A program made the position numbers and the translations under genes. Positions 16,340-38,065 of a stretch of DNA of 64,000 nt are shown here, one piece after another. Numbering within the stretch: the first letter of the stretch is position 1; each line of letters starts with the position of its first letter. The notes beneath the pieces are model-generated. The model searched no databases. It was not told the origin of the DNA and worked only from the letters and a program-made list of their open reading frames with translations. Source of the DNA: Phycisphaeraceae bacterium (GTDB lineage Bacteria > Planctomycetota > Phycisphaerae > Phycisphaerales > Zrk34); assembly GCA_028282805.1 (NCBI GenBank), contig JANQHD010000016.1:1-64000 (forward strand), in the 5' to 3' direction.

Positions 16340-17590
16340 ATGATGCAAGTACGTTCGAGTATCCACCTCCTGACCGGCGTGTTGCTCTTCTTGACCGTCG
16401 CCGGTTGCAAAGAGACCAACGGCAACCCCGCCGCGGAAGGCAAGTCCGGCGCGCCGGACACGCTGGTCGACCGGCCGATCGAGCCCTATCGGGCCGAGTT
16501 GGTTGATGTCGCGTTCCAGGCGGCTTCCGAGATGCCGGTCCACCCGTTTATCAAGGACCGGTCGCGGTGGCAGGAGAAGGTGGTTGGGGTTTGCCTCGAA
16601 CTGGATCAGCCCAAGCTTGCGTTGAAGTACGCCGACCGGATCAAGAACTGGCGGCGGGGCGCGGCTTACGCCGACATCGCCTACCACCTGGCCAAGCACG
16701 GCATGAAGGAGGACTTGGCGGTTTACCTCGAACGCGCCGAGCAGATCGCCAACGCGGTAAACCTCGAACAATGGCGCAGCGATCGTATTAAGATCAAGGT
16801 GGCCAGGGTCCATACCCTGCGGGGGCAGATGCTAAGAGCGGAAGAGATCGAGAAAGGCATTCAAGAGGGTGGGGAGACGGGCAAGCTCGCCAGCGAACGC
16901 GCCGCCGCCGACGGTGAGCGGTCGTTCGAGCAAGCCGTCAAAGAGCTGGATGCGCTGGTCGCCTCGGGCCAGTTCGACCAGATCCGCAACGCACAACTCG
17001 GGTACATCGCGCTCTACGACCGCCATTACGGCGAGCGCGAACGCCGGGACACGGTCGAGCAGAAGGCCCGCGACTCGTGGCACAAGATGGCGGTCTCGAT
17101 CAAGATCGACCTGCTGTTGAGCCTGGCGCATTGCTCGATCGCTCACGAAGACCACGCCAAGGCGCTGGGGCTGATCGACGAAGCGCAGGGCCTGAAAGAC
17201 GGCGCCGAATGGATGTTGCTCGACCGCATCCCCGTGACGGCCCGGCTGGCCGAGGCGCGGTTCGGTGCGGGGGACAAGGCGCGCGCGGTGTCGGATGCCG
17301 AAGTGGCCTTGGCGTCGTTCAAGTCCGACCACGAGAAGATCAGGAACTTCGAGCGCGCCGATGCGTTGATCCCGCTGGCCGAGGCTTTCGCCGCGATGGG
17401 CGAGTCGACGGAGGCGCTTGCCACCTACCGCCTGGCGGTGGAGCAGGGGACCATCAACCCCAACGCGCGCACGCGGGCTGAAGACCTGGCTGCGAATTGC
17501 CTGTCGATGGCGGTGCACGGCGTCGAGCCCGACGCCGAGTTGTGGGCGCTGATCCGGCAAATCAGAGAGGGATTGGTTGCACCGTGGTAA
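16340..17590 (+). CDS. TPR-like lipoprotein upstream of the TonB receptor
   Basis: A lipoprotein signal peptide with lipobox TVAGC (Cys near residue 25) is followed by about 390 residues of alpha-helical repeats. These are typical of tetratricopeptide-like solenoids (for example ALKYADRIKNWRRGAAYADIAYHLAKHG). The ATG pair at 16340/16343 was chosen because the lipoprotein signal begins there; an earlier GTG lies inside the terminator stem. The stop codon overlaps the GTG start of the TonB-dependent receptor, so the two are probably translationally coupled. It may assist the receptor in the periplasm; the exact role is unknown. Confidence 0.82.
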   Translation: MMQVRSSIHLLTGVLLFLTVAGCKETNGNPAAEGKSGAPDTLVDRPIEPYRAELVDVAFQAASEMPVHPFIKDRSRWQEKVVGVCLELDQPKLALKYADRIKNWRRGAAYADIAYHLAKHGMKEDLAVYLERAEQIANAVNLEQWRSDRIKIKVARVHTLRGQMLRAEEIEKGIQEGGETGKLASERAAADGERSFEQAVKELDALVASGQFDQIRNAQLGYIALYDRHYGERERRDTVEQKARDSWHKMAVSIKIDLLLSLAHCSIAHEDHAKALGLIDEAQGLKDGAEWMLLDRIPVTARLAEARFGAGDKARAVSDAEVALASFKSDHEKIRNFERADALIPLAEAFAAMGESTEALATYRLAVEQGTINPNARTRAEDLAANCLSMAVHGVEPDAELWALIRQIREGLVAPW

Positions 17591-20500
17591 GACGGCGTCC
17601 GTTCGTTTGGATTGCTTTGGCCGCCTTGTTGTTCGTGTACGCCCCGGCATCCGCCCAACCGATGGGCTCGATCCGAGGGGTCGTGATCGACAAGGATTTT
17701 GACGTGCCGTTGTCCGGCGCGACGGTGTTGATCGTGGAAACGGGTCAGAAGGTCACCACGACCGATCAGGGCAACTACAGCTTCGGCGAGGTGCCCGCCG
17801 GCAACTACACGCTGGTGTTCTCGAAGGACGGTTACACGCGGCAGGTGAAGTCCGAGGTCGTGGTGTCGCCGGGCCAGCTGACGGACCTGAACATCGACAT
17901 GCTCGGCGACTTCACCGACATGGAAGAGTTCGTCGTCGAGGACGTGCGGTTCGACGGGACCTCGGAAGAGGCGTTGCAGCAGATCCGCATCGAGAGCCCG
18001 GCGTTGCTGGACTCGATCGGCGCCGACATGATGAGCAAGGCCGGCGCCAGCGACGCGGCCGGGGCTCTGCGGCTGGTGGCGGGGGCGACGGTGCAGGACG
18101 GCAAGTTCGCCGTGGTGCGCGGCCTGCCCGACCGCTACGTCAACTCGCAGTTGAACGGCGTGCGCCTGCCGACCTCCGACGAGGACAAACGCGCGGTGCA
18201 GCTGGACCAGTTTCCCTCGGCGGTGATCGAGAGCGTGCGCGTGACCAAGACGTTCACGCCCGACCAGCAGGGCGACGCGTCCGGCGGCGCGGTCAACGTC
18301 GTGCTCAAGGGCATCCCCGAAGAGAACGTCCTCAAGTTCAGCAGCCAGGTCAGCTACAACACGCAGGTGCGCAACCGCGACGACTTCCTCACGTACAAGG
18401 GCGGGGGGGTGAACTTCTGGGGCAACGACCGGGGCAAGCGCGACATCCAGTTCCGGAACATCGGCGACGACTGGACGGGTGCGGTGGGTGTCAGCCGGGA
18501 CCAGGCGCCGGTGGACTACAAGTTCTCGCTCGCGGCGGGCGGCAAGGAAGAGTTCGCCAACGGGATCACCGTGGGTGGTTTCGCGAGCTTCTTCTACGAG
18601 CGCGACAGCTCGTTTTACGACAACGGCATCGACGACGCGCGCTGGGTGGAGAACCCCGGCGACCCGATGACGCCGAAGTTCGAGCAGGGCACGCCGGGGC
18701 AGGGGGAGTTTGTGACCTCGCTGTTCGACGTGACCAAGGGCGTCGAGGAGGTGCGTTGGGGTGGGTTGGGGACGTTGGGGGTCGAGAGCGAGAACCACTC
18801 GCTGAACCTGATCTACCTGTACACGCGGATCGCGGAGGACGAGGCGGTGCTCGCCGAGGACACGCGCGGCAAGCGGTTCTACTTCCCCGGTTACGACCCG
18901 GACGGCGACCCGTTCACCGACCCGCTGCTGACCGACAACGACCGCGGCGCGGCGCCGTACCTGCGCACCGAGACGCTGAAATACACCGAGCGCACCACCG
19001 AGAGCCTTCAGCTCAACGGCGAGCACAAGCTGCCCGACCTGGACCTCGGCGTGGAAGACGTGATCAAGTTCCGCCAGCCCGTGCTGGATTGGACGCTGGC
19101 GCGGAGCGAGGCGCACCTGTACGAGCCGGACAAACGCCAGTTCGGTTCGACGTGGGCGCCGGAGACGTTGGACCCGGGCTTCCCGCCGTTCGTGCCGCCG
19201 TCGATCACGCCGCGGGGTCACGGCCCGTTCAAGCCCGCCGAGGTGTTTACGCTCGGCAACCTGCAACGCACGTGGAAGGACATCCGCGAAGACAGCAAGC
19301 AGTACTTCATGAACCTCAAGTTCCCGTTCGAGCAGTGGAGCGGCGACGAGGGTTACGTGAAGGTCGGCTTCTTCCACGACGAGGTCACCCGCAAGTACGA
19401 TCAGGAATCGTTCAGCAACTTCAACGACAACACGGGCGGGCCGAACACGCCGTTCGAGGAGCTGTGGAGCGATGTCTTCCCCGACGAGACGCACCCGGTG
19501 ACCGACGGGCCGCCGTTCGTGGACGTGGATTACACGGGCGAGCAAGATTTGAAGGCTTTTTATTGGATGACGGACCTGCCGGTGACCTCGCGGTTCAAGC
19601 TGATCGGCGGGATGCGTTTCGAGAACACCGAGCTGAGCATCATCAACACGCCCGAGGCGGACGCGACGTGGTTCCCGCCGGGCGCGTTGACGGTGACGGC
19701 GCTGAACCCGGGCGACGCGGACGTGGCGTTCGAGCAGCGGGACGTGCTGCCCTCGATCGGTTTCGTGTACGACCCGACCGAGAAGATCACGTTCCGCGGC
19801 GCGTACAGCGAGACCGTGGCGCGGCAGACGTTCAAGGAGCTGTCGCCGATCCAGCAGCAGGAGTTCCTGGGCGGCGACGTGTTCATCGGCAACCCGAACC
19901 TGCAGATGAGCGCGTTGAAGAATTACGACCTTCGGTTGGACTATCGGCCGTACGAGGGCGGGCTGGTCTCGGTGTCGTACTTCAAGAAGGACGTCACCGA
20001 CCCGATCGAGTACGTGCAACGGGTGGCGACGTTCACCTACACGACGCCGTTGAACTTCCCCGAGGGTGAGATCGAGGGCTGGGAGTTCGAGGTGCGCCAG
20101 GACCTGGGGCACTTCTGGGCGGAGTTGCAGGGGCTGTCGGTCGGCGCGAACGCGACGCTGATCGACTCGCAGGTCACGCTGCCGGCCACCGAAGCGGCGA
20201 TGTTCTCCGCGGCGAACGTGCTCGCCCCGCAGACCACGCGCGATATGACCAACGCGCCCGAGCACCTGTACAACCTGTACCTGACCTACGAGTCGGAAGA
20301 GACCGGCACGCAGGTCGGCCTGTTCTACACGGTGCGCGGCGACACGCTCGTGGCGGGGGCGGGCGTTTCTGACGGCAACTTCGTGCCCAGCGTCTACGAA
20401 AAAGAGTTCGACACGCTCAACCTCAGCATCACGCAGAAGATCGGCGAGCACGTCAAGGTCAAGTTCCAGGCCAAGAACCTGACCGACCCCGACATCCAGG

Positions 20501-20601
20501 AGGTCTACCGCTCCCGCTTCATCGGCGACGACGTGCTGAAGACCTCGTTTACCAAGGGCATCGATTTTTCGCTGAGCATCAGCGCTGAATTTACGTTTTA
20601 A
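17584..20601 (+). CDS. TonB-dependent outer-membrane receptor
   Basis: The 1005-residue product starts at a GTG overlapping the preceding stop codon, with GAGAGGGA about 10 nt upstream. A signal peptide ends at APASAQ. Residues 28-110 form a carboxypeptidase-regulatory-like beta-sandwich (GSIRGVVIDKDFDVPLSGATV), and about 125-270 form the plug (GASDAAGALRLVAGATV, VVRGLPDRYVNSQLNG, GGAVNVVLKG). The remainder is a 22-strand-type barrel ending in the beta-signal SISAEFTF. Such receptors import large or scarce ligands with proton-motive energy from ExbB/ExbD/TonB, all of which are encoded just downstream (21478-25198). The adjacent beta-helix and TIGR02597-like proteins could bind the same ligand, which is not identifiable. 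Confidence 0.95.
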   Translation: MVRRRPFVWIALAALLFVYAPASAQPMGSIRGVVIDKDFDVPLSGATVLIVETGQKVTTTDQGNYSFGEVPAGNYTLVFSKDGYTRQVKSEVVVSPGQLTDLNIDMLGDFTDMEEFVVEDVRFDGTSEEALQQIRIESPALLDSIGADMMSKAGASDAAGALRLVAGATVQDGKFAVVRGLPDRYVNSQLNGVRLPTSDEDKRAVQLDQFPSAVIESVRVTKTFTPDQQGDASGGAVNVVLKGIPEENVLKFSSQVSYNTQVRNRDDFLTYKGGGVNFWGNDRGKRDIQFRNIGDDWTGAVGVSRDQAPVDYKFSLAAGGKEEFANGITVGGFASFFYERDSSFYDNGIDDARWVENPGDPMTPKFEQGTPGQGEFVTSLFDVTKGVEEVRWGGLGTLGVESENHSLNLIYLYTRIAEDEAVLAEDTRGKRFYFPGYDPDGDPFTDPLLTDNDRGAAPYLRTETLKYTERTTESLQLNGEHKLPDLDLGVEDVIKFRQPVLDWTLARSEAHLYEPDKRQFGSTWAPETLDPGFPPFVPPSITPRGHGPFKPAEVFTLGNLQRTWKDIREDSKQYFMNLKFPFEQWSGDEGYVKVGFFHDEVTRKYDQESFSNFNDNTGGPNTPFEELWSDVFPDETHPVTDGPPFVDVDYTGEQDLKAFYWMTDLPVTSRFKLIGGMRFENTELSIINTPEADATWFPPGALTVTALNPGDADVAFEQRDVLPSIGFVYDPTEKITFRGAYSETVARQTFKELSPIQQQEFLGGDVFIGNPNLQMSALKNYDLRLDYRPYEGGLVSVSYFKKDVTDPIEYVQRVATFTYTTPLNFPEGEIEGWEFEVRQDLGHFWAELQGLSVGANATLIDSQVTLPATEAAMFSAANVLAPQTTRDMTNAPEHLYNLYLTYESEETGTQVGLFYTVRGDTLVAGAGVSDGNFVPSVYEKEFDTLNLSITQKIGEHVKVKFQAKNLTDPDIQEVYRSRFIGDDVLKTSFTKGIDFSLSISAEFTF

Positions 20602-20640
20602 AACAATCCATTAACCAAGGCTTAACCAGACCGAGTTCAA

Positions 20641-21462
20641 ATGCACACCATGGATAACAGACCCATGAATGGACGGAAGCGTAGGCCTTGGCTGAACGGT
20701 GGTTTGGCGGCGGTCGCCTTGGCGGTGCTGGCGCTGTCGGCCGCCACGCATGGCCAGGAGCAAGACGCCGCCGGGATCGACGACACCCGCGCCGCGCTGG
20801 AGCAGTGGGTGGAAACCCGCCGGATCATCTCCAAGGAGAAGCGTGACTGGGCGCTGGGCAAGGAGGTCCTCAACGATCGCATCGAGATCGTCGAAACCGA
20901 AGTTAAATCTTTGCGCGACAAGATCAACACCGCCGAGCAGAGCATCGCCGAAGCCGAGGGCAAGCGTGCCGCGCTCGAACAGGACAACAACAAGCTGAAA
21001 CAGGCCTCCAGCTCGCTGGGCAGCACGATCCTCGCCTTGGAAAAGCGCACCAAGGAGCTGCTGCCCCGGCTACCCGAGCCGGTCCGCCTGCGCGTCAAGC
21101 CCCTCAGCCAGCGGATCCCCGAGAACCCGCAGGAGACCAAGCAATCCCTGGCCGAGCGGTTCCAGAACGTCGTCGGCGTCCTCAACGAGGTCAACAAGTT
21201 CAACAGCCAGATCACGATCAACACCGAGATCCGCGAGTTGCCCAACGGGACCTCGTCGGAGGTGACCACGCTCTACGTCGGCCTCGGCCACGCCTACTAC
21301 GCCAACGCCAACGCGACCCTCGCCGGCATCGGCACCGCCACGGCGTCGGGCTGGGTGTGGACGCCCGCCAACGAACACGCGGAGAAGATCGCCAAGGCCA
21401 TCGCCATCTGGAACAACGACGAGATCGCCGAGTACGTGCAGCTCTCGGTTGAAGTGGAATAA
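20641..21462 (+). CDS. DUF3450 family periplasmic coiled-coil protein of a TonB2-type system
   Basis: This 273-residue protein has an N-terminal signal segment (LAAVALAVLALSAATHG, about 22-38) and a long coiled coil (about 50-140, rich in Glu, Lys and Ala). A conserved C-terminal part contains TLYVGLGHAYYAN and ASGWVWTPAN. These features match DUF3450, whose genes stand directly before ttpC-exbB-exbD-tonB clusters in Vibrio-type TonB2 systems. It lies 16 bp before the TtpC-like gene. A role in coupling TonB energy to the envelope is likely but not proven for the family. Alternative starts at 20650 and 20665 are possible. Confidence 0.85.
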   Translation: MHTMDNRPMNGRKRRPWLNGGLAAVALAVLALSAATHGQEQDAAGIDDTRAALEQWVETRRIISKEKRDWALGKEVLNDRIEIVETEVKSLRDKINTAEQSIAEAEGKRAALEQDNNKLKQASSSLGSTILALEKRTKELLPRLPEPVRLRVKPLSQRIPENPQETKQSLAERFQNVVGVLNEVNKFNSQITINTEIRELPNGTSSEVTTLYVGLGHAYYANANATLAGIGTATASGWVWTPANEHAEKIAKAIAIWNNDEIAEYVQLSVEVE

Positions 21463-21477
21463 GCGACCCGGATCATC

Positions 21478-22974
21478 ATGAAGAACATCTACCAAGCCAG
21501 CGTCTGTCTGTTCGCCCTCGCTTTCGCGGCCGCCGCCCAGGCGCAAAAGCCTGAGCAAACGCCCGAAGCGACCCCGCCCGCGGGAGCCGCCGAACCTGCG
21601 CAGGCCGAGAAGAAGGAAGAAACCTTCAGCGACGCCGCCAGCGACGTGCAGCAGCAACTGAAGGACAGCCTCGCGGAGCTGGACGCCCTGCGTGAGCAGA
21701 TCGCCGCCGAGAAGATCCCGTTGAGCGTCAAGCTCAGCGAGCAGGAGAACGAGCTCGTCGACGTGCGTGCCGAGTTCCAGCGGAAGACGCGCGTGCTCGA
21801 CACGCGGACGCTGGACCTGAGCAACCTGCGCACGGAGATCCGGGCGCGTGAGAAGGAAGCGAAGTATTTGTCGAACCTGCTGGGCGACTTTGCCCGCAAC
21901 TTCGAGAAAGACCTGCACATCGCCGAACTCCAGCGGTACCGCGACACGATCGACGCGGCGCGCCTCGCCCCGGAAAACAGCAACCTCTCCGAGCAGGAGG
22001 TCTACGAGGTCCAGGCGGCGCTGGTCACCGCTTCGCTCGAACGCCTGCACGACGCCCTCGGCGGTACGAGCTACAAGGGCAACGCCGTCGACCCGACCGG
22101 CATCATCCAGGAAGACGGCACGTTCGTGCTCGTCGGTCCCGCGGCCCTGTTCCGGTCGCCCGACGGCAAGCACGTGGGTATCGCCGATCAACGCCCCAAC
22201 TCGCTCGACCCCGTGATCGTCCCGTTCCGCAACCCCGCCGACGCCAAGGCGGCTTCGCAGCTCGTCGCGTCCGGCAAGGGCGCGTTCCCCCTCGACCCGA
22301 CGCTCGGCAATGCGCAGGTGATCGAGGCCACCCAGGAAACCTTCTTCGAGCACGTGAAGAAGGGCGGCCCCGTCATGGTGCCGATCTTCGCGCTCGCCGG
22401 CGCAGCCCTGCTCGTGGCGATCTACAAGTGGTTCCGCCTCGCGTTCCTGCGGCCGCCGTCGGCCAAGCGGCTCGGCGACCTGCTCGACGCCGTGGCCAAG
22501 CACGACCAGCCCGCCGCCGCCAAGAAGGCCAAGGCCATCCGCGGCCCGATCGGCGCCATGCTCGCCGTGGGCGTCGAGCACCTCAAGGAACCGCGCGAGC
22601 TGATCGAAGAGGTCATGTATGAGAAGGTCCTCTCGACCCGCCTCAAGCTGCAGGGCATGCTGCCGTTCATCGCCATCTGCGCCGCGTCGGCGCCGCTGCT
22701 CGGCCTGCTGGGCACCGTGACCGGCATCATCAACACCTTCAAGCTCATCACCCTGTTCGGGTCGAGCGACGTCAAGTCCCTCTCCGGCGGCATCTCCGAG
22801 GCGCTGATCACGACCAAGTTCGGCTTGGTCGTCGCGATCCCCTCGCTGTTGATGCACGCGTTCCTCGCCCGCAAGGCGAAGGGCGTGGTGGACGAGATGG
22901 AGAAAGCCGCGGTCGCCTTCACCAACCAGGTGATGAAGACCCCGTACCAGCAACCGACCGACAAGGCCGCCTGA
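21478..22974 (+). CDS. TtpC-like MotA/TolQ/ExbB protein with periplasmic coiled-coil extension
   Basis: The 498-residue protein has a signal peptide (AQAQ, about 1-22) and a periplasmic coiled coil at about 45-145. A first membrane helix lies near 300-325 (VMVPIFALAGAALLVAIYKW). The MotA/TolQ/ExbB core follows, with helices near 395-425 (MLPFIAICAASAPLLGLLGT) and 440-470 (ALITTKFGLVVAIPSLLMHAF). Ordinary ExbB is about 240 residues; the long N-terminal extension is the hallmark of TtpC, an extra energising component of Vibrio TonB2 systems. It probably joins the ExbB/ExbD motor and contacts TonB across the periplasm. The cluster order agrees with this reading. Confidence 0.9.
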   Translation: MKNIYQASVCLFALAFAAAAQAQKPEQTPEATPPAGAAEPAQAEKKEETFSDAASDVQQQLKDSLAELDALREQIAAEKIPLSVKLSEQENELVDVRAEFQRKTRVLDTRTLDLSNLRTEIRAREKEAKYLSNLLGDFARNFEKDLHIAELQRYRDTIDAARLAPENSNLSEQEVYEVQAALVTASLERLHDALGGTSYKGNAVDPTGIIQEDGTFVLVGPAALFRSPDGKHVGIADQRPNSLDPVIVPFRNPADAKAASQLVASGKGAFPLDPTLGNAQVIEATQETFFEHVKKGGPVMVPIFALAGAALLVAIYKWFRLAFLRPPSAKRLGDLLDAVAKHDQPAAAKKAKAIRGPIGAMLAVGVEHLKEPRELIEEVMYEKVLSTRLKLQGMLPFIAICAASAPLLGLLGTVTGIINTFKLITLFGSSDVKSLSGGISEALITTKFGLVVAIPSLLMHAFLARKAKGVVDEMEKAAVAFTNQVMKTPYQQPTDKAA

Positions 22975-23005
22975 CCCGCGGGCGATTTGCCGAGAGCGAA
23001 AACCG

Positions 23006-23641
23006 ATGGACGCGATGGTTGAACAGTTGGGCGCGGTTTGGCGGCAAGCCGTTTCGATCTGGCTCTCCGGCGGGTGGGCCATGATCGCGATCGCGATCAA
23101 CGCGGTCTTCCTGTTCGCGATCGGCACCCGGGTCATGCTGCGGCTGCGCGAGAAGGGCTTCGGCAAGGTCTCCGAGAAGCGGTGGCGGCGCTGGATCGAC
23201 CACCCCGAGCAGCGCAGGGGGCCGATCGGCCAGATGCTCGACTTCGTGACCGGCGCCCACTCGCTGCACGAGCTCGGCGTGATGTTCGAGGAGCTGCGCG
23301 CGACCCAGATCGTGCCCTTCCAGCGCGACCTGAAGGTGATGAAGATCTGCGTCAGCGCCGCGCCCCTGTTCGGGCTGCTGGGCACGGTCACCGGGATGCT
23401 CGTGACCTTCGGCGCGATGGCGACCGGCACCGGCGGCGACAAGACCATGAACGAGATCGCCGGCGGCATCTCCGAGGCCTTGATCACGACCGAGACGGGG
23501 CTGGTCGTGGCGATCCCCGGGCTGTTCTTCCAGTACCAGATGACCCGGCAGCTCGAACGCTACAAGGCCTTCCTCGCGCACCTGCAGACGGTGTGCACGC
23601 AGGACCTGTACCGCAAGATGAACCGCAAGAAGGCGGCGTAA
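23006..23641 (+). CDS. exbB: ExbB proton-channel subunit
   Basis: This 211-residue MotA/TolQ/ExbB protein has a first helix at about 22-42 (GGWAMIAIAINAVFLFAIGT) and a cytoplasmic loop. Two further helices bear the family core (ISAAPLFGLLGTVTGMLVTF-like and ALITTETGLVVAIPGLFFQY). With ExbD it forms the inner-membrane motor that uses proton flow to move TonB. It follows the TtpC-like gene by 31 bp and precedes two exbD genes, so the cluster encodes two ExbB-like and two ExbD subunits. Confidence 0.94.
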   Translation: MDAMVEQLGAVWRQAVSIWLSGGWAMIAIAINAVFLFAIGTRVMLRLREKGFGKVSEKRWRRWIDHPEQRRGPIGQMLDFVTGAHSLHELGVMFEELRATQIVPFQRDLKVMKICVSAAPLFGLLGTVTGMLVTFGAMATGTGGDKTMNEIAGGISEALITTETGLVVAIPGLFFQYQMTRQLERYKAFLAHLQTVCTQDLYRKMNRKKAA

Positions 23642-23672: not shown

Positions 23673-24080
23673 ATGGCACGGTTTCGAGAATCAACCTACG
23701 AAGAGGAGTCGGATAACGCGATCGACATCTCGCCGTTGATCGACTGCGTGTTCATCCTGCTGATCTTCTTCATCGTCACCGCCCGTTTCGTCGAGGAGCC
23801 CGGCATCGAGGTGCAGCGCCCGGTCGCCGCGTCCGCGCAGTCCCTGGCCAAGACCTGCATCCTCATCGCCGTCACCGAGAACGGCGAGGTGGTCTACGGC
23901 GGGCGGGAGATCGGCGTCAACGGCGTGGCGCCGCTGGTCGAACGGATGCTCAAGAAAGACAACGTCCCGGTGATCGTCCAGGCCGACGCCACCGCCAAGT
24001 CGGGCACGTACCTGAAGGTCGTCAAGGAAGCCGAGCTGGCCGGCGCGCTGGTGTACAACGCGACCGACGCCCCGGGCTGA
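23673..24080 (+). CDS. exbD: ExbD biopolymer transport protein (first copy)
   Basis: The 135-residue product has a short cytoplasmic N-terminus, then a single membrane helix containing the essential aspartate in the motif IDISPLIDCVFILLIFFIV (near residue 27), and a periplasmic domain of about 85 residues. It works with ExbB to convert proton flow into motion of TonB. The next gene encodes a second ExbD with an almost identical helix but a different periplasmic domain, so the pair may form a heteromeric ExbD dimer. Confidence 0.94.
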   Translation: MARFRESTYEEESDNAIDISPLIDCVFILLIFFIVTARFVEEPGIEVQRPVAASAQSLAKTCILIAVTENGEVVYGGREIGVNGVAPLVERMLKKDNVPVIVQADATAKSGTYLKVVKEAELAGALVYNATDAPG

Positions 24081-24106: not shown

Positions 24107-24526
24107 ATGGCACGTTTTCGCCGCACATCCGACGACTCAGGTGAAGAGACGATCGACATCTCGCCGTTGATCGACTGCGTGTTTATCCTGCTGATCTTCT
24201 TCATTGTCACCACGACCTTTGTGGACGAGTCGGGCATCCCGACCAGCACATCGCAATCGAGCGCGCCGGCGAACGACGAGGAAAAGACGGTCATCACGAT
24301 CTCGCTCAACGCCAAGGGCCAGGTCAAGGTCGACGGCGAGGACGTCGGCCTCAGCGGCATCCGGCCCCGGATCAGAACCGTGCTGCGCGAGGAAGACGCG
24401 CCGGTGATCATCCAGTCGCACATCAACACACCCGTCGATGCGCTGGTGCGGGCCCGCGACGAATCGGTCCTCGCCGGCGCCACCAAGGTGTCGTACGCCA
24501 ACCCCGTAAGCGGGAGTGAATCCTGA
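24107..24526 (+). CDS. exbD: ExbD biopolymer transport protein (second copy)
   Basis: The 139-residue product shares the transmembrane motif IDISPLIDCVFILLIFFIV with the preceding gene. Its periplasmic part differs (VKVDGEDVGLSGIRPRIRTV, PVIIQSHINTPVDALV). A GAGG ribosome site lies upstream of the ATG. Tandem exbD genes suggest a specialised or heterodimeric peptidoglycan-binding stator subunit. The gene is followed after 6 bp by tonB. Confidence 0.94.
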   Translation: MARFRRTSDDSGEETIDISPLIDCVFILLIFFIVTTTFVDESGIPTSTSQSSAPANDEEKTVITISLNAKGQVKVDGEDVGLSGIRPRIRTVLREEDAPVIIQSHINTPVDALVRARDESVLAGATKVSYANPVSGSES

Positions 24527-26631: not shown

Positions 26632-26747
26632 CCACAGATTATGGCCAACCGTTGACTTTTCACACATTCTCGTAATCGACGACTAATCGATCCTTAACCG
26701 GCGAGAATTATGATGTCGGGCTACGAGCATGGAGAAAAGTGATCGAC

Positions 26748-30656: not shown

Positions 30657-31870
30657 TGCCGGTCTACGCCTACACCGCCACCAGCGCCGCCGGCGGCACG
30701 GTCACGCCCGACCGCGGCACGATCACCGCGGACTCCCCGCGCCAGGCGCGCGACCAGCTGCGCGACCGCGGCCTGTCGATCCGCGACCTGATCGAACAGA
30801 AGGCCGGCCGGGGTCAAAACCTGTTCAACCGCTACCTCGCGGGCCGACAGTCCGCCAAGGTCACCGGGTTGTTGCAGGAGATGGCGACGCTGCTGGGCGC
30901 GGGCATCCCGCTGATCGAAACGCTCGACACCATCACCCGCCAGCACGAAGGGCGGTTCCAGCAGTCGATCATGCTGCTGCGCGACCGCGTCGCGGCGGGC
31001 GGTTCGCTGGCCGAGGCGATGGGCGAGCAGGCGGTGCTGTTCGACCCGCTGTGCGTCAACATCGTGGAGGTCGGTGAGAACGCCGGCACGCTCGACGCGT
31101 CGCTGGCGCGCCTGGTCGAGTTCCGTCGGCAGGCCTCGTCGATGAAAAACCGCGTGGCGTCGGCGCTGATGTACCCCGGCATCGTTTTGTCGGTGGGCGT
31201 CGGCATCAGTGTTTTTCTCATGACTTTTGTGATGCCGCAGGTGCTCGAAGTGCTCGAAGGCACCGGCCAGCAGCTGCCTTTCGTCACGGTCGTGGTCAAG
31301 GCGATCAGCGACTTCTTGCTCGGCTGGTGGTGGCTGTTGCTTATGGCCACGGCCGGGCTGGTTTCCGGCGCCACGGCCTTGCTGCGCACGGAGCGCGGCA
31401 CGCTGGGGCTTCACCGGTTGTTGCTGCGGCTGCCGGTGCTCGGCGACCTGCTCCGCAAGCAGGCGATCGCGCGCATGGCGACGGTGATGGCGACGCTGCT
31501 CAAGAGCGACCTGCCGTTTGTGCGCGCCGTGCGGATCGCGCAGCGCACCGTGCGCAACGGGGTGTTGCAAGGGGCGCTGGTGGTGTGCGAGCAGGCGGTG
31601 GTCGCGGGGCGGGACATCTCCGACGCCCTGGAGAAGACGGGCGCCTTCCCGCCGATGGTGATCCAGGTGTTCGCGGTGGGCCAGGCGTCCGGGCGGCTGG
31701 AGGAGATGCTCGAGAACCTCGCCGCCGACTACGACACGCAAGTCGACATCGCTTCGAGTCGGCTGACCGTGTTGCTCGAACCGATCATGATGATCTTTCT
31801 GGCGATCGTGGTGGGGTTCATCGCGTTCGCCGTGATCCTGCCCATATTGGAGGCCGGCAATGTGCTCTAA
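30656..31870 (+). CDS. gspF: Type II secretion inner-membrane platform protein GspF
   Basis: This 404-residue protein starts at the ATG overlapping the gspE stop codon (TGATG). Two T2SF domains are each followed by membrane helices; the clearest helices are near 170-200 (YPGIVLSVGVGISVFLMTFV), 220-245 and 375-400 (IMMIFLAIVVGFIAFAVILP). It is the polytopic platform that couples the GspE ATPase to pseudopilus growth. It overlaps the next gene, gspG, by 11 bp, consistent with one polycistronic message. Confidence 0.95.
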   Translation: MPVYAYTATSAAGGTVTPDRGTITADSPRQARDQLRDRGLSIRDLIEQKAGRGQNLFNRYLAGRQSAKVTGLLQEMATLLGAGIPLIETLDTITRQHEGRFQQSIMLLRDRVAAGGSLAEAMGEQAVLFDPLCVNIVEVGENAGTLDASLARLVEFRRQASSMKNRVASALMYPGIVLSVGVGISVFLMTFVMPQVLEVLEGTGQQLPFVTVVVKAISDFLLGWWWLLLMATAGLVSGATALLRTERGTLGLHRLLLRLPVLGDLLRKQAIARMATVMATLLKSDLPFVRAVRIAQRTVRNGVLQGALVVCEQAVVAGRDISDALEKTGAFPPMVIQVFAVGQASGRLEEMLENLAADYDTQVDIASSRLTVLLEPIMMIFLAIVVGFIAFAVILPILEAGNVL

Positions 31871-32291
31871 ACAGACCCGCGGGCGGCGCTGCGCGCGGCG
31901 CCGCACGGACAAGCCCGGGTTTTCGTTCATCGAGATCATGGTGGTGGTGGTGATCATCGGCATGCTCGCCGGGGCCGTGGCGATGCGTTTCGGCGGCGTG
32001 GTGGACAAGGCCAAGGTCGAACGCGCACGCAACGACATCGGCACGATCGTCAATGCCATCGAGTTGCATTACACGCAGCACAACCGCTACCCCGACAACG
32101 ACGAGGGCTTGAGCGGTTTGCCGTTGAAGAGCACCAAGGACCCGTGGGGCAGCCCTTACGGTTACAACAGCCCGGGGCAGGGCGAGCCGTACGAGGTGTT
32201 CTCGCTGGGCGCCGACAAGCGGGTCGGCGGCGAAGGGCAGGACGCCGACATCTACTCGTGGCAGCTCGGCGATGTGGTGGAGGACGGTTAA
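31860..32291 (+). CDS. gspG: Major pseudopilin GspG
   Basis: The 143-residue product has a prepilin leader ending KPG, mature Phe1, Glu5 and the hydrophobic stretch FSFIEIMVVVVIIGMLAGAV. The C-terminal half has the family's calcium-site region (DPWGSPYGYNSPGQGEPYEVF, SLGADKRVGGEGQDADI). GspG polymerises into the pseudopilus that pushes substrates through the secretin. The leader of about 20 residues is arginine-rich. The start overlaps gspF. Confidence 0.96.
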   Translation: MCSKQTRGRRCARRRTDKPGFSFIEIMVVVVIIGMLAGAVAMRFGGVVDKAKVERARNDIGTIVNAIELHYTQHNRYPDNDEGLSGLPLKSTKDPWGSPYGYNSPGQGEPYEVFSLGADKRVGGEGQDADIYSWQLGDVVEDG

Positions 32292-32293
32292 GC

Positions 32294-32833
32294 GTGAGGC
32301 GGCGCGCGTTCACGCTGATGGAGGTCGTGCTCGTCGTGGCGCTGCTGGGGCTCATGGCCGGCGCGACGACGTGGTCGCTGGCGGCGTCGGCCCAACGTGG
32401 CTCGCGGGAACACGCGTTCGGTCAACTGGCCGGCTTGGACCGGGCGGCCCGGCTGACCGCCGAGCGTTTGGGGGAACCGGTCGTGCTGCGGTTCGACCTC
32501 GACAAGCAGCGCGTGCGCCGGTTTGTGGTAAGCGAGCGTGATCGGCACGCCGCCTCGCACACGCTGACGATGCCGCGGGGCGTGAAGATCGATCGGGTCG
32601 TCACCGCGGGATCGGACGGGCGGGGCGGGGCGGACGCCGACACGTTCGACGTCGCGTTTTCGACTGGCGGGCGCAGCGTGAGCTACGCCTTGAAACTCGT
32701 GGCGGACGACCCGCGCACCGCGCAATGGATGGTGGTTGGCGGGTTGACCGGCCAGGTAACGATGGGATTCGATGAAGACGAAGTCGACAATCTGTTTGCC
32801 ACGCTCGCGGCGGGCCGGCCTGACGCTGATTGA
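32294..32833 (+). CDS. gspH: Minor pseudopilin GspH-like
   Basis: The 179-residue product starts at a GTG 2 bp after the gspG stop codon. The prepilin signal is RRRA / FTLMEVVLVVALLGLMAGAT, with Glu5 present. The residue before the cleavage site is alanine instead of the nearly invariant glycine. Position in the operon and length fit GspH. The 3' end overlaps gspI by about 60 bp if the first ATG of gspI is used. Confidence 0.85.
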   Translation: MRRRAFTLMEVVLVVALLGLMAGATTWSLAASAQRGSREHAFGQLAGLDRAARLTAERLGEPVVLRFDLDKQRVRRFVVSERDRHAASHTLTMPRGVKIDRVVTAGSDGRGGADADTFDVAFSTGGRSVSYALKLVADDPRTAQWMVVGGLTGQVTMGFDEDEVDNLFATLAAGRPDAD

Positions 32834-33224
32834 GGTCGTCGCGGCGATCGCGATACTCGGCACGGTGCTCGTGGGCGTGGTGATGGCCAAGGCCCGGCAC
32901 ACGCACCAGTTGGCGCTGACCGAGAGGCGAAACGATGCGTTGCGCGCCGCTGACGAGTTGCTCGCGTCGTGGTGGACCGAGCCGCAGGGCGTGCCCGTCG
33001 CGCAGTCGGGCGAGTTTGAGGCCGGTGTGCCGTTGGCGTGGGAGACGCGCTGGGTGCCGAACCGCGCCGTTGAAGAGTTGGGCGCGCGTGTGCTGCGCGT
33101 GGAGATTCGCGAATCGCCCGATGGCGCGATCGAGCCGATCGACGGCGGGGAGGCGCTGGTCGTGGTCGACCTGGTGATGCCAAACCCGGACGCGGACGGC
33201 GAGAAGGGAGGGGGTCGGCCGTGA
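32772..33224 (+). CDS. gspI: Minor pseudopilin GspI-like
   Basis: The 150-residue product has the prepilin signal RRAG / LTLIEVVAAIAILGTVLVG with Glu5, and a short C-terminal domain ending in charged residues. Starting at the ATG at 32772 causes a 62-bp overlap with gspH. A TTG at 32796 would give a shorter leader and a smaller overlap, and I cannot decide between them. GspI forms the tip complex with H, J and K. The stop overlaps the GTG of gspJ. Confidence 0.85.
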   Translation: MKTKSTICLPRSRRAGLTLIEVVAAIAILGTVLVGVVMAKARHTHQLALTERRNDALRAADELLASWWTEPQGVPVAQSGEFEAGVPLAWETRWVPNRAVEELGARVLRVEIRESPDGAIEPIDGGEALVVVDLVMPNPDADGEKGGGRP

Positions 33225-34078
33225 ATCGGGCGCGTGGGTTTACGCTTGTGGAGTTGCTGTTGGCGACGGCGCTTTCGACGCTGTTGCTGTTGGGGGTGAC
33301 GGCGGTGATCGCATCGCTCGGCTCGGCGGCGCAGCGTGAGGGGCGCGGGCAACAAGCTGCACATGCGATCGGACCCGCCGCGGTCGACGCGTGGGTGCGG
33401 CTGCTGCGAGAAGACATGGCCAACGCGAGTGAGGTCGAGGTGTCGGGCGACAACGAGTTGACGCTGATCGGTCACGCGGCGCTGGACCCGCGGAGCGGCG
33501 AGCGCACCCATCGGCCGGCCCGCGTGGTGTACGCGGTTGAGCGCATCGGGGCCCGCGACTGGCTGGTGCGCCGGCAGCATGCGCTGGACGAGTTGAACAG
33601 CCGGAACGTGAGCCGGCGGCTGGTGTTGTGTGGTGTGGCGGGTTTCGAGTTGGACAGCCGTGGTGCGGATACCGTTGCCGATGAAGGCACAGATGCCCGG
33701 CGCCCGCAGGCGTCAGTAAGCACAGCGGCGCCCGGCGAACGGCAACCCGCCGCCCGCCGGCCCGGCGCATCGCACACGGGGCTGAAGGACGGGACGAACG
33801 TGTACCTCGCGGGGTTGGCGTACTACGTGGAGAACCTGCCCGAAGATATCCGCCGCAACCTCGTTGAGGAAGCGGATGGCACGTACTCGATCGCGACGAC
33901 CAAGGCGGGCATCGACGTCAGCGCCGCGGGTCAGGCGTCGGCGAGCGGTGCCGGGCCCGGCTCGGTCGATCGTGGGCAAGATGAACCCGCGGCGCACGCC
34001 TCGGCGGTTGCGTGGCGGTTGCGCCTTTGGGTGGGCGACCAACAGCCCGCCGTGGAAAGGCTGGTGGGGGTGCGATGA
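33221..34078 (+). CDS. gspJ: Minor pseudopilin GspJ-like
   Basis: The 285-residue product begins at a GTG overlapping the gspI stop codon (GTGA). The prepilin signal RARG / FTLVELLLATALSTLLLLG is clear, with Glu5. The protein is longer than most GspJ (about 200 residues). The extra length is a low-complexity Arg/Pro/Ala region near 165-185 and a C-terminal stretch with a cluster of Ala, Ser and Gly, so the assignment relies on order as well as the leader. Confidence 0.8.
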   Translation: MNRARGFTLVELLLATALSTLLLLGVTAVIASLGSAAQREGRGQQAAHAIGPAAVDAWVRLLREDMANASEVEVSGDNELTLIGHAALDPRSGERTHRPARVVYAVERIGARDWLVRRQHALDELNSRNVSRRLVLCGVAGFELDSRGADTVADEGTDARRPQASVSTAAPGERQPAARRPGASHTGLKDGTNVYLAGLAYYVENLPEDIRRNLVEEADGTYSIATTKAGIDVSAAGQASASGAGPGSVDRGQDEPAAHASAVAWRLRLWVGDQQPAVERLVGVR

Positions 34079-34998
34079 GGCGCAACGCACACACATGCCG
34101 ACCGCGGCGCAGCGGTTTCGTGCTGCTGATGACGCTGGTGCTGGTGCTGTTGGCGGGCGTGTCGCTGGCGGGCGTGGCGCGGCGGAGCGCGCTGGGCGCG
34201 GTGGAAACCCGGACCGGTGTCGAGGCGTTGCAACGGCGGTGGGCGATCACGAGCTTGCACGCGACGCTGGCGGGGCGCGCCGAAGCGTTGCTGGACGAAG
34301 CCGAACAGCGAGCGCATAGATCGGTTGCGCACGAGCGCCGGCCGATCGCCAGCGGGCGTGTGGTGTTCGAACTGGCGGGGCACGCGTACGAACTGGTCGT
34401 GACCGACGAGCAGTCGAAGCTCAACGTGAACCAACTGGTCGCGAGCGAGGGCCGGGCGGCGGCGCAAGAGGCGGTTGGGCGTTTGGTTGGCGCCGGCCGA
34501 GCGCCGGACAGCAAGGTGAAGGTGAGCTTGCGTCAGCGATCGTCAAGCGTCGCGGGTTCGGTAGACGGTTCAACGCTGCCCGCGGTGGTGGGTTACGGCC
34601 AGTTGTTTGAAGCGGTGCCACCCGATGCGTTGATCGGCGACGGTGCGGGTTCGGGCCTGGCGGCGGGGGTCACGTTGTGGGGCGACGGGCGGGTGAATGT
34701 TCGGCGTGCTTCTGACGAGGTGATTCGCCGGGCGTGCACCAAGCCCTTGGGGCCGGTGGTCGTGGCGAAGCTTATCGCGGCGCGGAACGAAAACCCGAAG
34801 CGTGACCTGGCGGATTTGCTCAAGGGCATCAGCGGGCTCGATCGCGCGTTGCGTGTGAAGATCGACCGGCACGTGACCGACCGCTCGCGTTGCCACGGCT
34901 TGTGGGTGATCGCTCGCGACGGCCAGCGTGCCTGGCACTCGCTGTTGATCGTCGAGGGTGAACCGAACGACTTACAGGAGCACCGGTACACGTGGTGA
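34075..34998 (+). CDS. gspK: Minor pseudopilin GspK-like
   Basis: The 307-residue product starts at the ATG overlapping the gspJ stop codon. The leader ends RRSG / FVLLMTLVLVLLAGVSLAG and lacks Glu5, which is a known peculiarity of GspK, the tip pseudopilin. A helix-hairpin-like segment (RDLADLLKGISGLD) near 265-280 fits the GspK C-terminal region. The order after GspJ supports the call. Sequence similarity beyond these features is low. Confidence 0.8.
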   Translation: MRRNAHTCRPRRSGFVLLMTLVLVLLAGVSLAGVARRSALGAVETRTGVEALQRRWAITSLHATLAGRAEALLDEAEQRAHRSVAHERRPIASGRVVFELAGHAYELVVTDEQSKLNVNQLVASEGRAAAQEAVGRLVGAGRAPDSKVKVSLRQRSSSVAGSVDGSTLPAVVGYGQLFEAVPPDALIGDGAGSGLAAGVTLWGDGRVNVRRASDEVIRRACTKPLGPVVVAKLIAARNENPKRDLADLLKGISGLDRALRVKIDRHVTDRSRCHGLWVIARDGQRAWHSLLIVEGEPNDLQEHRYTW

Positions 34999-35002: not shown

Positions 35003-35548
35003 ATGAATGTACGCCAACGGAAACGAATGATCGTGGGGTCGGCGAGCGTGGTGGCGCTGGGCGCGGCGGCGTTGCTGGCCTGGGGTTTGGGCGTGCCCGT
35101 GTGGGTGGCGCCGGCGGTTGCGGGCGTGACGCCGAACGCCGGCGCAACGAACGAGGCTTCGGGGGGCGCCGATGATGATCAGGCGCCCGCCCAAGCGCCG
35201 GCGCTCGATCTGGCGGAACTGAAACGGCTGTGCGCGACGGACCTGCGGCGACCGTTGTTCGACCCAACGCCCGTCAAGCCGAAAGCGACCGCGGCGGCGC
35301 CCGCGCTGAGCGCCCTGCGTGTGCGGTTGATCGGCACGGCGAACGAACCGGGGCACGCAATGGCCATGCTAGAAAAGAGCGACCGCACCATCGCGTGGTG
35401 CGCCGAGGGCCAGAGCATCACCGACGGCGGGGGCGTGTTGACGCTGGCCAAGGTTGAGAACGAAAAGGTCAAGGTGTTGTACGGCGGCAAGGAGTACGAG
35501 CTGGTGATGCCGAAGAGGCCGCCGCTGCTGGGGGGAGGCAAGCCGTGA
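35003..35548 (+). CDS. GspC-like inner-membrane protein of the type II system
   Basis: The 181-residue product has one N-terminal membrane helix (about 10-30, VGSASVVALGAAALLAWGLG) and a proline/alanine-rich linker. A small beta domain of about 65 residues (RVRLIGTANEPGHAMAMLEK, WCAEGQSITDGGGVLTLAKV) resembles the homology-region domain of GspC/PilP. GspC links the platform to the secretin. There is no PDZ domain. Being placed between gspK and gspL, rather than first in the operon as in proteobacteria, makes the name tentative. Confidence 0.7.
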   Translation: MNVRQRKRMIVGSASVVALGAAALLAWGLGVPVWVAPAVAGVTPNAGATNEASGGADDDQAPAQAPALDLAELKRLCATDLRRPLFDPTPVKPKATAAAPALSALRVRLIGTANEPGHAMAMLEKSDRTIAWCAEGQSITDGGGVLTLAKVENEKVKVLYGGKEYELVMPKRPPLLGGGKP

Positions 35549-36918
35549 GTGAGGCGTTTGTGGTTGTGCTCGGCGACGACGCGTGGCGCGTGGGTCGGAT
35601 TGCCGACGGCGAGGTCGAACTGGTTGATTTGCCGCACGAGGCCGGGTCGCCGGTGGAAGCGCGTGTCGATCGTGCGGCGGAGCAACTCGAAGCGTTGGGC
35701 CACGCGGGTCAACCGGTTGTGCTGGCGCTGCCGAGCGCGTGGTGCTTGAGCGCCGTGATCGCGATGGACGACCTGGAGCGCAGCGGCCGGCGGCGAGCGA
35801 TGGGGTACCGGCTTGAAGAGTGCCTGCCGATTTCGTGCGAAGACGTGGTGGCGGATTACGTCGAGTTTGATAAGGGTGAAGCGCTTGGCGTGTGTGCCGA
35901 GTACGCGCCGTTGGCCGCTTGCGTCAACGCCTTCGAGGCCCGTGGCGTGCCCGTGGGGCACCTCTGCCCGGCGGCGGTGCTGGTTGCGGCGCACGAGGCC
36001 GAGCGGTGCGCGGATATCGACGGCGTGCTGATCGGCCACGCGCACGAACCGCATGCCGAATACGACTTGATCGAGTTTCGCAACGGCAAACCTTCGCGGT
36101 GGTGGTGGATCACGCGGGACGACCACGCGGTGCGCGAACACGTCGCGGCGTGGGCGTCGGCCGACGAACGGCCGTTACGGTTGTCGACGGTCGGGGGCGA
36201 TCGGTCGGTCGGTGAGTATGTGAGCGCGATAGCGCAGGTATCGCTTGAATCGGGGGATGCCGATGCCACGCAGGCCGCGGCGCGGCAGGCGGCGAGGCTG
36301 TTGGATCACGCGGCGGCGCCGTGGGTCGACCTGCGACGCGATGCGCTGGCGGCGCCGGGGCGGTTTCGGGCTTACCACAAGCCGGTCGGCCTGCTCGCCG
36401 TGGCGGTCGTGTTGTTGCTGGTCAGCCTGTCGGTCGTGGCACAGTGGCGCGGCCGGCAGTACCGGGCGCTGGCCGCGCAGCACAAGCACGACCAGCGGCT
36501 CGTGTTTCAGCAGGCGATGCCCGACGCGAAGCGTGTGCCCGTCGAGTTCATGGCCCGCCGCCTGGACAGCGAACGCCGCAAGCTCGCCGGCGTCGGCGGG
36601 AAGGCGACGGAAGACGTCGACCCGGCGGAGTTGCACCCGACCTCGGCCTTAGCGCACCTTCGTGGTGTGCTGGCGCACCTGCCGGGCGACGTGCGTTACC
36701 GCGTGTTGGACCTGCAGATCCGGCCCGACCTGGTGCGCGTGGACGGCGAGGCGCAGAGCCACGTGGAGGCCGAGCGCGTGGCCGTGGCGCTGCGCCAGTC
36801 GGGCGCGTACACCGTCGAACAGCCCAAGACCGAGCGGCTCAAGGGCCGGGGTGTAAGCTTCTTGTTCCACGCCCGCCCGGCCGAAGCCTCGCTCGCCGCG
36901 AAGGGGGATACGCGATGA
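35545..36918 (+). CDS. gspL: GspL-like assembly platform protein
   Basis: The 457-residue protein has a cytoplasmic actin-like region (about 1-270: FVVVLGDDAWRVGRIADGEVEL, VVLALPSAWCLSAVIAMDDL) and a single membrane helix near 282-300 (GLLAVAVVLLLVSLSVVAQW). A periplasmic ferredoxin-like domain of about 120 residues follows. This is the GspL architecture that recruits GspE. It starts at a GTG overlapping the preceding stop codon and ends overlapping gspM. Overall similarity to proteobacterial GspL is weak, so the call rests mainly on architecture and order. Confidence 0.75.
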   Translation: MSEAFVVVLGDDAWRVGRIADGEVELVDLPHEAGSPVEARVDRAAEQLEALGHAGQPVVLALPSAWCLSAVIAMDDLERSGRRRAMGYRLEECLPISCEDVVADYVEFDKGEALGVCAEYAPLAACVNAFEARGVPVGHLCPAAVLVAAHEAERCADIDGVLIGHAHEPHAEYDLIEFRNGKPSRWWWITRDDHAVREHVAAWASADERPLRLSTVGGDRSVGEYVSAIAQVSLESGDADATQAAARQAARLLDHAAAPWVDLRRDALAAPGRFRAYHKPVGLLAVAVVLLLVSLSVVAQWRGRQYRALAAQHKHDQRLVFQQAMPDAKRVPVEFMARRLDSERRKLAGVGGKATEDVDPAELHPTSALAHLRGVLAHLPGDVRYRVLDLQIRPDLVRVDGEAQSHVEAERVAVALRQSGAYTVEQPKTERLKGRGVSFLFHARPAEASLAAKGDTR

Positions 36919-37448
36919 TTCAGCTCAAACGCTCGGCGAGGATGATCGCGTTGGTGGTGGTGGCGCTGGCGGTCGCGGCGGGCCTGAACCTGGAATGGAT
37001 GATCGCGCAGCGCGCCGAAGCGCGGGGCGCGTTGGAAGACCTTGAACGCTGCCGGCAGCTCGTGGGGCAGATCGCGTCGTTGCGCGACATACCCACCGTG
37101 GCTTCGACCGAAACCATGGGCGTGCAGGAGCTGGGCGACCGGATCCAGCGGGCCCTGCGGTTGGCGCAGCTCGAGGCCTCGGCGATCGAGGGCATCTACC
37201 CGCAGTCGGCCCGGCGCGTGGGCGACTCGCCTTACCTTTTGAAGCCGACGCAGATCGTGTTCCGCGGCGTGACCCTGCCGCAGCTGACCACGTTCCTGTA
37301 CCACATGAACGACGACACCGGCATGAACGTCAGCCACCTGAACCTCAGCACGCCGCGCAGCGACGCGACCGACGCGCGGTGGGACGCCGACGCCACGCTG
37401 ACCTACCTGATCTTTTCGCCGCCCAAGAACAAGCGAGCCAAACTGTGA
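36915..37448 (+). CDS. gspM: GspM-like inner-membrane protein
   Basis: The 177-residue protein begins at an ATG overlapping the gspL stop. It has one membrane helix at about 10-27 (MIALVVVALAVAAGLNLEWM), a short coiled coil (about 28-55) and a periplasmic alpha/beta domain (about 85-170). This matches GspM/PilO topology, the partner that binds GspL. The gene ends at a stop codon that overlaps the GTG of the following lipoprotein gene. Confidence 0.72.
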   Translation: MIQLKRSARMIALVVVALAVAAGLNLEWMIAQRAEARGALEDLERCRQLVGQIASLRDIPTVASTETMGVQELGDRIQRALRLAQLEASAIEGIYPQSARRVGDSPYLLKPTQIVFRGVTLPQLTTFLYHMNDDTGMNVSHLNLSTPRSDATDARWDADATLTYLIFSPPKNKRAKL

Positions 37449-38065
37449 GCGCGATGATGTGTCACCGAGCGATGAAACACCTTTGCCTTGCCCTGATGCT
37501 GATGGCCGCGTGCGGTTGCAACCCCAACCGCGTCGCGGACGCGCCGATCGGCAACTACCGAACCATCACCGCCGAGCCGCGGCGCGACACCGAGGCGGCC
37601 AAGCGCTTGAACCGCGTCGGCCTCGAGCACCTCGCGGCGGGTGAGTACGACGAGGCGGTCGACGCGTTCGTGCGCGCGTTGACCGAAGACGTCGAGTTCG
37701 GCCCGGCCCACAACAACCTCGGCAAGGTCTATTACATCCAGAAGAACTGGTACAAGGCCGCGTGGGAGTTCGAGTACGCCGGCAAGCTGCTGCCGCGCCA
37801 CGCCGAGCCGCGCAACAACCTCGGGCTCGTGCTGGAACAGGCCGGCGAGCTCGACCGCGCCGTCGACCAGTACCGCCAGGCGGTGGGCCTCGAGCCCGGC
37901 GTCATCGCCTACCGCGGCAACCTCGCGCGTGCGCTGATCCGTCGGGGCGACCGCACGGACGAGGTGCGCAAGCTGCTGGAGTTGATCGTCGAAAACGACA
38001 CGCGCCCCGAGTGGGTGCTGTGGGCACGCCAGCAACAGGCGGGTTCCGGCGTCCGGTTCGAGTGA
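37445..38065 (+). CDS. TPR lipoprotein at the end of the type II secretion operon (possible pilotin)
   Basis: The product has a lipoprotein signal with MAACGC. Three or four tetratricopeptide repeats follow (HNNLGKVYYIQKNWYKAAWE, PRNNLGLVLEQAGELDRAVDQY). The GTG start overlapping gspM by GTGA follows the pattern of this operon; ATGs at 37454 and 37472 are alternatives. Small TPR lipoproteins such as PilF/PilW act as pilotins that place secretins in the outer membrane, so this could serve GspD. That function is inferred from location and fold only. Confidence 0.78.
   Translation: MSAMMCHRAMKHLCLALMLMAACGCNPNRVADAPIGNYRTITAEPRRDTEAAKRLNRVGLEHLAAGEYDEAVDAFVRALTEDVEFGPAHNNLGKVYYIQKNWYKAAWEFEYAGKLLPRHAEPRNNLGLVLEQAGELDRAVDQYRQAVGLEPGVIAYRGNLARALIRRGDRTDEVRKLLELIVENDTRPEWVLWARQQQAGSGVRFE

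Follow-up and report, generated by a model that had tools for sequence, protein, structure and literature searches.

In Caulobacter, the elpS gene (cc0170) is followed by the receptor gene cc0171 and by gspC to gspN of a type II secretion system (T2SS); the order cc0170-cc0171-gsp has also been reported for Xanthomonas campestris, Sphingomonas alaskensis and Hyphomonas neptunium (PMC2996285). ElpS is a surface lipoprotein produced under phosphate starvation; the T2SS is required for its release, not for its surface display, and protease inhibitors, like loss of the T2SS, leave it on the surface and stop release (PMC2996285). The Caulobacter T2SS belongs to the PhoB regulon (PMC11208175). A second relevant arrangement is that of the Vibrio vulnificus TonB2 and TonB3 operons, ttpB-ttpC-exbB-exbD-tonB-ttpD, the TonB3 operon starting with a receptor; in the Vibrio TonB2 operon, iron transport depends on the outer genes, ttpB and ttpD (PMC6957404). 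Here we consider a locus in a 64,000-nucleotide stretch of contig JANQHD010000016.1 from a Phycisphaeraceae bacterium (the whole stretch is referred to as the window). The best explanation overall, and on balance a probable one, is that it encodes a planctomycete system of the ElpS/TonB-receptor type, to which a T2SS and a TonB2-type motor of its own are joined.

The locus is a co-directional run of plus-strand genes spanning positions 12247-38065. It starts with genes of secreted proteins (TIGR02597-family, PEP-CTERM and beta-helix), followed by a TPR lipoprotein, the TonB receptor, the motor cluster TtpB(DUF3450)-TtpC-ExbB-ExbD-ExbD-TonB-TtpD(TPR), and the T2SS genes GspD to GspK, GspC, L and M with a further TPR lipoprotein. 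Genes were identified by profile searches with Pfam and NCBIfam.

The beta-helix protein and its receptor

The comparison of neighbourhoods covered 28 contigs of other genomes as well as 12 stretches from relatives, and 397 genomes of the class were surveyed. The tightest conserved unit (the module) consists of the beta-helix protein, TPR lipoprotein, receptor, DUF3450, TtpC, ExbB, ExbD, TonB and TPR genes. It was found on contigs labelled Phycisphaerae, Sedimentisphaerales, Sumerlaeota and Omnitrophota, and also, in a different gene order, in Verrucomicrobiota; the TPR lipoprotein between the beta-helix and receptor genes (TPR0) is present in most loci. The beta-helix gene occurs in 35 of the 397 genomes of the class, and the receptor accompanies it in all 29 newly found genomes (29/29), residing on the same contig in 27. 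In three genomes (G041, G216, G377; loci L108, L112, L113) the pair adjoins a shorter motor, DUF3450-TtpC-ExbD-TonB, with a separate ExbB undetected; hence, the motor can differ.

The beta-helix and receptor pair recurs in Planctomycetota, Verrucomicrobiota, Gamma- and Alphaproteobacteria, and Bacteroidota. On plasmids, tblastn identified homologues of the beta-helix protein in Pseudoalteromonas, Alteromonas, Marinobacter, Sphingomonas, Indioceanicola and Bacteroidota, and a TonB receptor adjoins the homologue in every region opened except that of Marinobacter. Vice versa, the plasmid proteins most similar to the window receptor are for the most part those receptors that stand beside beta-helix homologues. 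The surroundings of the pair differ: in Alteromonas, phoB-phoR and a phosphate-binding protein gene precede the beta-helix and receptor genes, which are followed by DUF3450-TtpC-ExbB-ExbD-TonB-TPR; in Pseudoalteromonas the order is TonB2 cluster, beta-helix, receptor; in Parabacteroides and Aureibacter it is receptor-beta-helix; and in Sphingomonas and Indioceanicola the beta-helix and receptor genes are followed by a T2SS (GspC/N, GspD, GspE, GspF onward). The two proteins form a near-obligate pair and, judging by gene order and the placement of homologues, this is very probably the ElpS-type receptor pair. The original prediction, made from the sequence of the window, overlooked this pair as the core of the locus.

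The window beta-helix protein has a type I-like signal peptide, and its N terminus, MKLMKKIALLGMAMGITTGAANA, contains no cysteine and hence no lipobox, unlike several proteobacterial homologues, which carry the lipobox cysteine. Its AlphaFold2 model is a parallel beta-helix (mean pLDDT 74) that aligned to polysaccharide lyases, epimerases, tailspikes and rhombotarget A with Z of about 16-21 (VIA-align), although such likeness of a modelled fold would be no proof of function. With the solved structure of rhombotarget A (9cdv, Z 16.5) it has the parallel beta-helix in common at about 12% identity; the fold alone is common, and we do not claim membership. A sequence search of the PDB with this protein gave nothing above chance, and Foldseek gave weak beta-helix matches only. 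About 65 residues ending the beta-helix proteins of T2SS-type loci form a C-terminal domain (CTD) that, according to the alignment, is absent from the relatives with no T2SS; in three genomes (G010, G216, G377) dockerin-like repeats stand in its place. One locus (L111 in G190, 17008-19998) has a single open frame with two beta-helix units.

Behind the beta-helix gene there is a strong terminator-like hairpin followed by T-rich sequence, and transcription of the whole run as a single uniform unit is therefore unlikely. In 12 other loci a hairpin likewise lies behind the beta-helix gene, with the stem ATGGC[A/G]G conserved. The inverted ATGGC[A/G]G hairpin has 14 instances in the 1.28 Mb of sequence fetched, 13 of them 24-117 nt behind a beta-helix gene, and there are covarying pairs, 10 of 15 being changed on both sides. 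In other phyla, a hairpin of differing sequence occupies the equivalent place. A genome-wide repeat or uptake sequence was considered and rejected, as the window contains one pair and 13 of the 14 instances have this position. The conservation of the hairpin sequence surpasses what a plain terminator would require. It is probably a terminator or an attenuator that separates the secreted proteins from the receptor, and would probably allow for larger amounts of the secreted proteins than of the receptor and the machines. In Caulobacter, elpS and cc0171 are separately regulated (PMC2996285).

Linkage of the secretion system and its accessory proteins

GspC, D, E, F, G, the minor pseudopilins, K, L and M stand in one cluster of the window, as expected for a T2SS. 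GspE exceeds the cut-off of TIGR02533 (643 bits, cut-off 630), and GspD matches TIGR02517 at 6e-89, under the cut-off of that family. The gene called C-like in the original prediction is GspC, as its family profile matched solved GspC/OutC structures (2lnv, 9e-5; 6hcg, 1e-4) and NF041515 (5e-5). GspK and GspL have weak Pfam scores, yet their orthologues align in the right order; GspM is assigned by position.

Calling GspD orthologous when its best piece scored above about 340 bits, we found it in 10 of 41 relatives and, among 29 further genomes with the beta-helix gene, in G041 alone. The T2SS is located downstream of the module in seven loci (window, G001, G008, G017, G039, L049, L062) and upstream of the TIGR02597 gene in three (G005, G006, G007); in G041, it lies on a different contig from the module, with the accessory set retained. 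Thus, the module and the T2SS are adjacent in 10 of the 11 genomes with both, in two opposite gene orders, the genomes being related. The association in the 41 relatives has Fisher p 4e-6, uncorrected for relatedness, and two parts placed at random in a 4 Mb genome would come to lie within 20 kb of each other in about 1% of genomes. As linkage was observed in 10/11 genomes against these odds, it is not due to chance. According to the original prediction, the proposal would fail if the two clusters were unlinked in most relatives; this is so at the level of the class, where most relatives have no such T2SS, and is not so among the genomes with both parts.

Several genomes with the T2SS, the window genome included, hold a second, unlinked one. 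In the window genome the second T2SS (L083, contig C17, 11277-31276) is complete, is of the same clade and has its own TPR2 lipoprotein; neither TonB genes nor TIGR02597, PEP-CTERM or beta-helix partners are nearby. In the tree of GspD, GspE and GspF, the downstream-linked and upstream-linked T2SSs form two clades with full support. This is suggestive of two independent origins of the linkage within planctomycetes, a reading we did not retain, since one joint clade for both linked types is not rejected (approximately unbiased (AU) test, p 0.41). The alphaproteobacterial T2SSs standing beside the same pair fall outside all planctomycete T2SSs. Co-inheritance of the T2SS and the motor was considered and dropped, as the trees of the module disagree in part and have weak support.

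The accessory proteins follow the T2SS. Strong matches of the CTD profile (above 70 bits) occur in exactly six of the 397 genomes (G000, G005, G006, G017, G039, G041); TIGR02597 occurs in exactly the same six, once in each and always in this locus, and these are the genomes with both the module and the T2SS. Among the 35 module genomes this co-occurrence has Fisher p 6e-7, uncorrected for relatedness. Neither TIGR02597 nor the CTD occurs in G013 and G033, where the T2SS is present and the module absent. A PEP-CTERM protein occupies the equivalent position in the other T2SS-type loci. A search of plasmids for TIGR02597 gave no match, and the AlphaFold2 model of the TIGR02597 protein, built from two sequences (pLDDT 37), is unusable.

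Proposed function and competing explanations

In the favoured explanation, the beta-helix, TIGR02597 and PEP-CTERM proteins would enter the periplasm through Sec, and the T2SS would then carry them, or a factor freeing them, over the outer membrane. The beta-helix protein on the surface would bind or process a nutrient that is hard to access. The receptor would import the product, energised by TtpC, ExbB, ExbD and TonB. That the T2SS serves these same surface proteins is rather likely. As for the ligand, phosphorus is the best guess given Caulobacter, Alteromonas and the PstS-like neighbours in L043, L053 and L056 (PstS-like or PhoB-like neighbours occur in some related loci), and we tentatively suggest a phosphorus-containing one.

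Several observations weigh against this explanation. In the window, the Pho box has one weak match against 2.7 expected, which is no better than chance, and the flanking genes vary between loci, most of them being uninformative on the nutrient. ElpS of Caulobacter reaches the surface independently of the T2SS, and its release alone is T2SS-dependent (PMC2996285); moreover, most relatives bearing the module have a beta-helix protein with a signal peptide and no such T2SS (the linked type is missing from 29 of 35 sampled genomes with the module), so that this protein can manage with no T2SS, at least when it has no CTD. The CTD is present in L038, where a T2SS was undetected, although this 2.0 Mb assembly may be incomplete. 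The genomes with the linkage are related, and a single origin of it in planctomycetes is not rejected (AU test above). Finally, the putative identification as ElpS relies on gene order and homologue placement.

An alternative, which we consider unlikely, is that the cargo of the T2SS is a processing enzyme or another partner, not the beta-helix protein, and that the T2SS releases the surface ElpS-like protein as in Caulobacter, the receptor acting separately. It agrees with the effects of T2SS loss and protease inhibitors on ElpS (PMC2996285) and with the many relatives that have the module and no T2SS. However, the window beta-helix protein has no lipobox and hence no lipoprotein route to the surface, the run contains no protease gene, and TIGR02597 and the CTD track the T2SS. 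The locus may also be a neighbourhood with no joint function, in which a housekeeping T2SS landed beside the uptake module and the arrangement was then inherited. The variable flanks and the non-rejected single origin are compatible with this, but it is made improbable by the two opposite gene orders, by the exact co-occurrence of the accessory proteins and by Alphaproteobacteria, in which T2SSs of separate lineages stand next to the same pair. That the secretin, or the T2SS as such, draws its energy from the TonB2-type motor, as the original prediction had suggested for the secretin, is hardly credible despite the physical adjacency and the TPR and DUF3450 proteins of unclear detailed role in between, since the motor module is complete with no linked T2SS in most of the class, complete T2SS copies in the same genomes have no TonB genes, the annotated stretch with the pair and its adjoining T2SS in Alphaproteobacteria contains no TonB motor genes, and the T2SS possesses its own ATPase, GspE.

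Thus, we retain the ElpS-type system with its own T2SS and motor. The proposal of a combined export-capture-import unit gains from the pairing, the T2SS adjacency in Alphaproteobacteria, the tracking of the T2SS by TIGR02597 and the CTD, and the fate of ElpS in Caulobacter, and is weakened by the T2SS-independent arrival of ElpS at the surface there. A stronger version would be that the CTD, TIGR02597 and PEP-CTERM proteins mark dedicated T2SS cargo, the CTD being a portable tag for export or surface retention that replaces the lipid anchor of ElpS, which would yield a one-locus export-capture-import machine; this we regard as doubtful speculation.

Gene layout and relation to known clusters

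The features of the locus are listed in the table. The Pfam and NCBIfam matches agree with the original prediction on the named TonB-module and T2SS genes in one co-directional run. The gaps are short and 4-bp overlaps frequent, chiefly in the T2SS part, again as predicted. The predicted receptor is present, but it starts near 17584, and the frame opening at the predicted start, 16340, is the separate TPR lipoprotein TPR0, which the prediction had missed.

Table. Features of the locus, in window coordinates.
Feature	Position	Strand	Evidence
TIGR02597-family secreted protein, signal peptide	12247..13272	+	NCBIfam TIGR02597 3.8e-52
Secreted protein, PEP-CTERM tail and dockerin-like repeats	13336..14337	+	Pfam PEP-CTERM 1.2e-7, Dockerin_1 4e-4
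Beta-helix surface protein, putative ElpS (cc0170) family by gene order	14416..16224	+	class-wide conservation, AlphaFold2 fold, homologues adjoining receptors
CTD of the beta-helix protein	16024..16221	+	alignment; T2SS-type loci
Terminator-like hairpin behind the beta-helix gene, ATGGC[A/G]G conserved in its arms	16273..16309	+	conserved stem; 10 of 15 pairs changed on both sides
TPR lipoprotein (TPR0)	16343..17590	+	kept in most loci; lipobox TVAGC
TonB-dependent receptor, N-terminal carboxypeptidase-regulatory-like domain, TIGR01782-like	17584..20601	+	Pfam barrel 6e-35, plug 1e-9
TtpB-like (DUF3450)	20641..21462	+	Pfam PF11932 1.6e-28
TtpC (extended MotA/TolQ/ExbB protein)	21478..22974	+	Pfam PF01618 7e-29
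ExbB	23006..23641	+	Pfam PF01618 1.1e-21
ExbD, first copy	23673..24080	+	Pfam PF02472 1.6e-21
ExbD, second copy	24107..24526	+	Pfam PF02472 7.2e-26
TonB	24533..25198	+	Pfam PF03544 (TonB_C) 1.1e-16
TtpD-like TPR lipoprotein (TPR1)	25204..26631	+	TPR families; position equals Vibrio TtpD2 (PMC6957404)
GspD secretin	26739..28979	+	Pfam Secretin 5e-31, N0 7e-9; TIGR02517 6e-89
GspE ATPase	29019..30656	+	TIGR02533 above cut-off
GspF	30656..31870	+	Pfam T2SSF 1.6e-54
GspG major pseudopilin	31860..32291	+	Pfam T2SSG 8.6e-22
GspH-like minor pseudopilin	32294..32833	+	N_methyl motif, position
GspI-like minor pseudopilin	32772..33224	+	N_methyl motif, position
GspJ-like minor pseudopilin	33221..34078	+	N_methyl motif, position
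GspK-like	34075..34998	+	Pfam T2SSK 7e-3 (weak), position, orthologues
GspC	35003..35548	+	profile matches to solved GspC/OutC, NF041515 5e-5
GspL	35545..36918	+	Pfam GspL_C 1e-3 (weak), position
GspM-like	36915..37448	+	position and orthologues; no family match
TPR lipoprotein (TPR2) accompanying the T2SS, present in unlinked T2SS copies too	37472..38065	+	

An Rfam scan of the window gave nothing at the gathering score, and a sigma-70 scan of 11500-27000 gave no promoter. A plus-strand open reading frame at 38246-39700 was discarded in favour of a Sel1-repeat gene on the opposite strand. Behind the T2SS region there is a glycyl radical enzyme of the pyruvate formate-lyase type with a radical SAM activase (39984-43108, plus strand). 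Further on, an apparent fusion of 1552 aa, with a malate synthase part and then an isocitrate lyase part (50835-55493, minus strand), adjoins AceK, the isocitrate dehydrogenase kinase/phosphatase (55505-57247, plus strand). A sulfatase with a PEP-CTERM tail lies near the locus (5110-8688, minus strand) and likewise in L077 (7762-10871); the G039 locus has two sulfatases downstream.

How a T2SS recognises its cargo follows no general rule, and ElpS-type proteins, although their family spans several phyla, have no established role; the locus is a natural experiment in this respect, as there are relatives with and without the T2SS, the CTD and TIGR02597. A further suggestion from the locus is that gene organisation couples secretion with TonB-dependent uptake in lineages as distant as Planctomycetota and Alphaproteobacteria.

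Like the elpS cluster of Caulobacter, the window has a secreted or surface protein, a TonB receptor and a T2SS in one stretch, and in Sphingomonas and Indioceanicola the same places are held by a homologous beta-helix protein and receptor. In contrast to the Caulobacter cluster, the window adds a complete TonB2-type motor, standing between the receptor and the T2SS, as well as TPR lipoproteins, TIGR02597 and PEP-CTERM proteins; its beta-helix protein has a CTD and no lipobox; GspC follows GspK; and the T2SS is of a separate lineage. With the V. vulnificus TonB2 and TonB3 operons the window has the gene order and domains in common (TtpB/DUF3450, TtpC, ExbB, ExbD, TonB, TtpD/TPR), which bears out the original prediction, whereas the second ExbD gene, the beta-helix partner and the attached T2SS set it apart, and Vibrio TonB2 serves iron uptake. 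The large-plasmid clusters of Alteromonas and Pseudoalteromonas likewise keep the beta-helix protein, the receptor and the six-gene TonB2 cluster together, but have no adjoining T2SS; the aligned Pseudoalteromonas beta-helix proteins have a lipoprotein signal, and phosphate genes adjoin the Alteromonas cluster. The window joins the Caulobacter-type arrangement of the pair with a T2SS and the Alteromonadales-type arrangement of the pair with a TonB2 cluster. In the literature searched we found no paper describing the combined locus; the TonB2 cluster is a known arrangement, as is the pair beside a T2SS, and what is new is their combination, the absence of the lipid anchor and the co-occurring set of TIGR02597, PEP-CTERM and the CTD.

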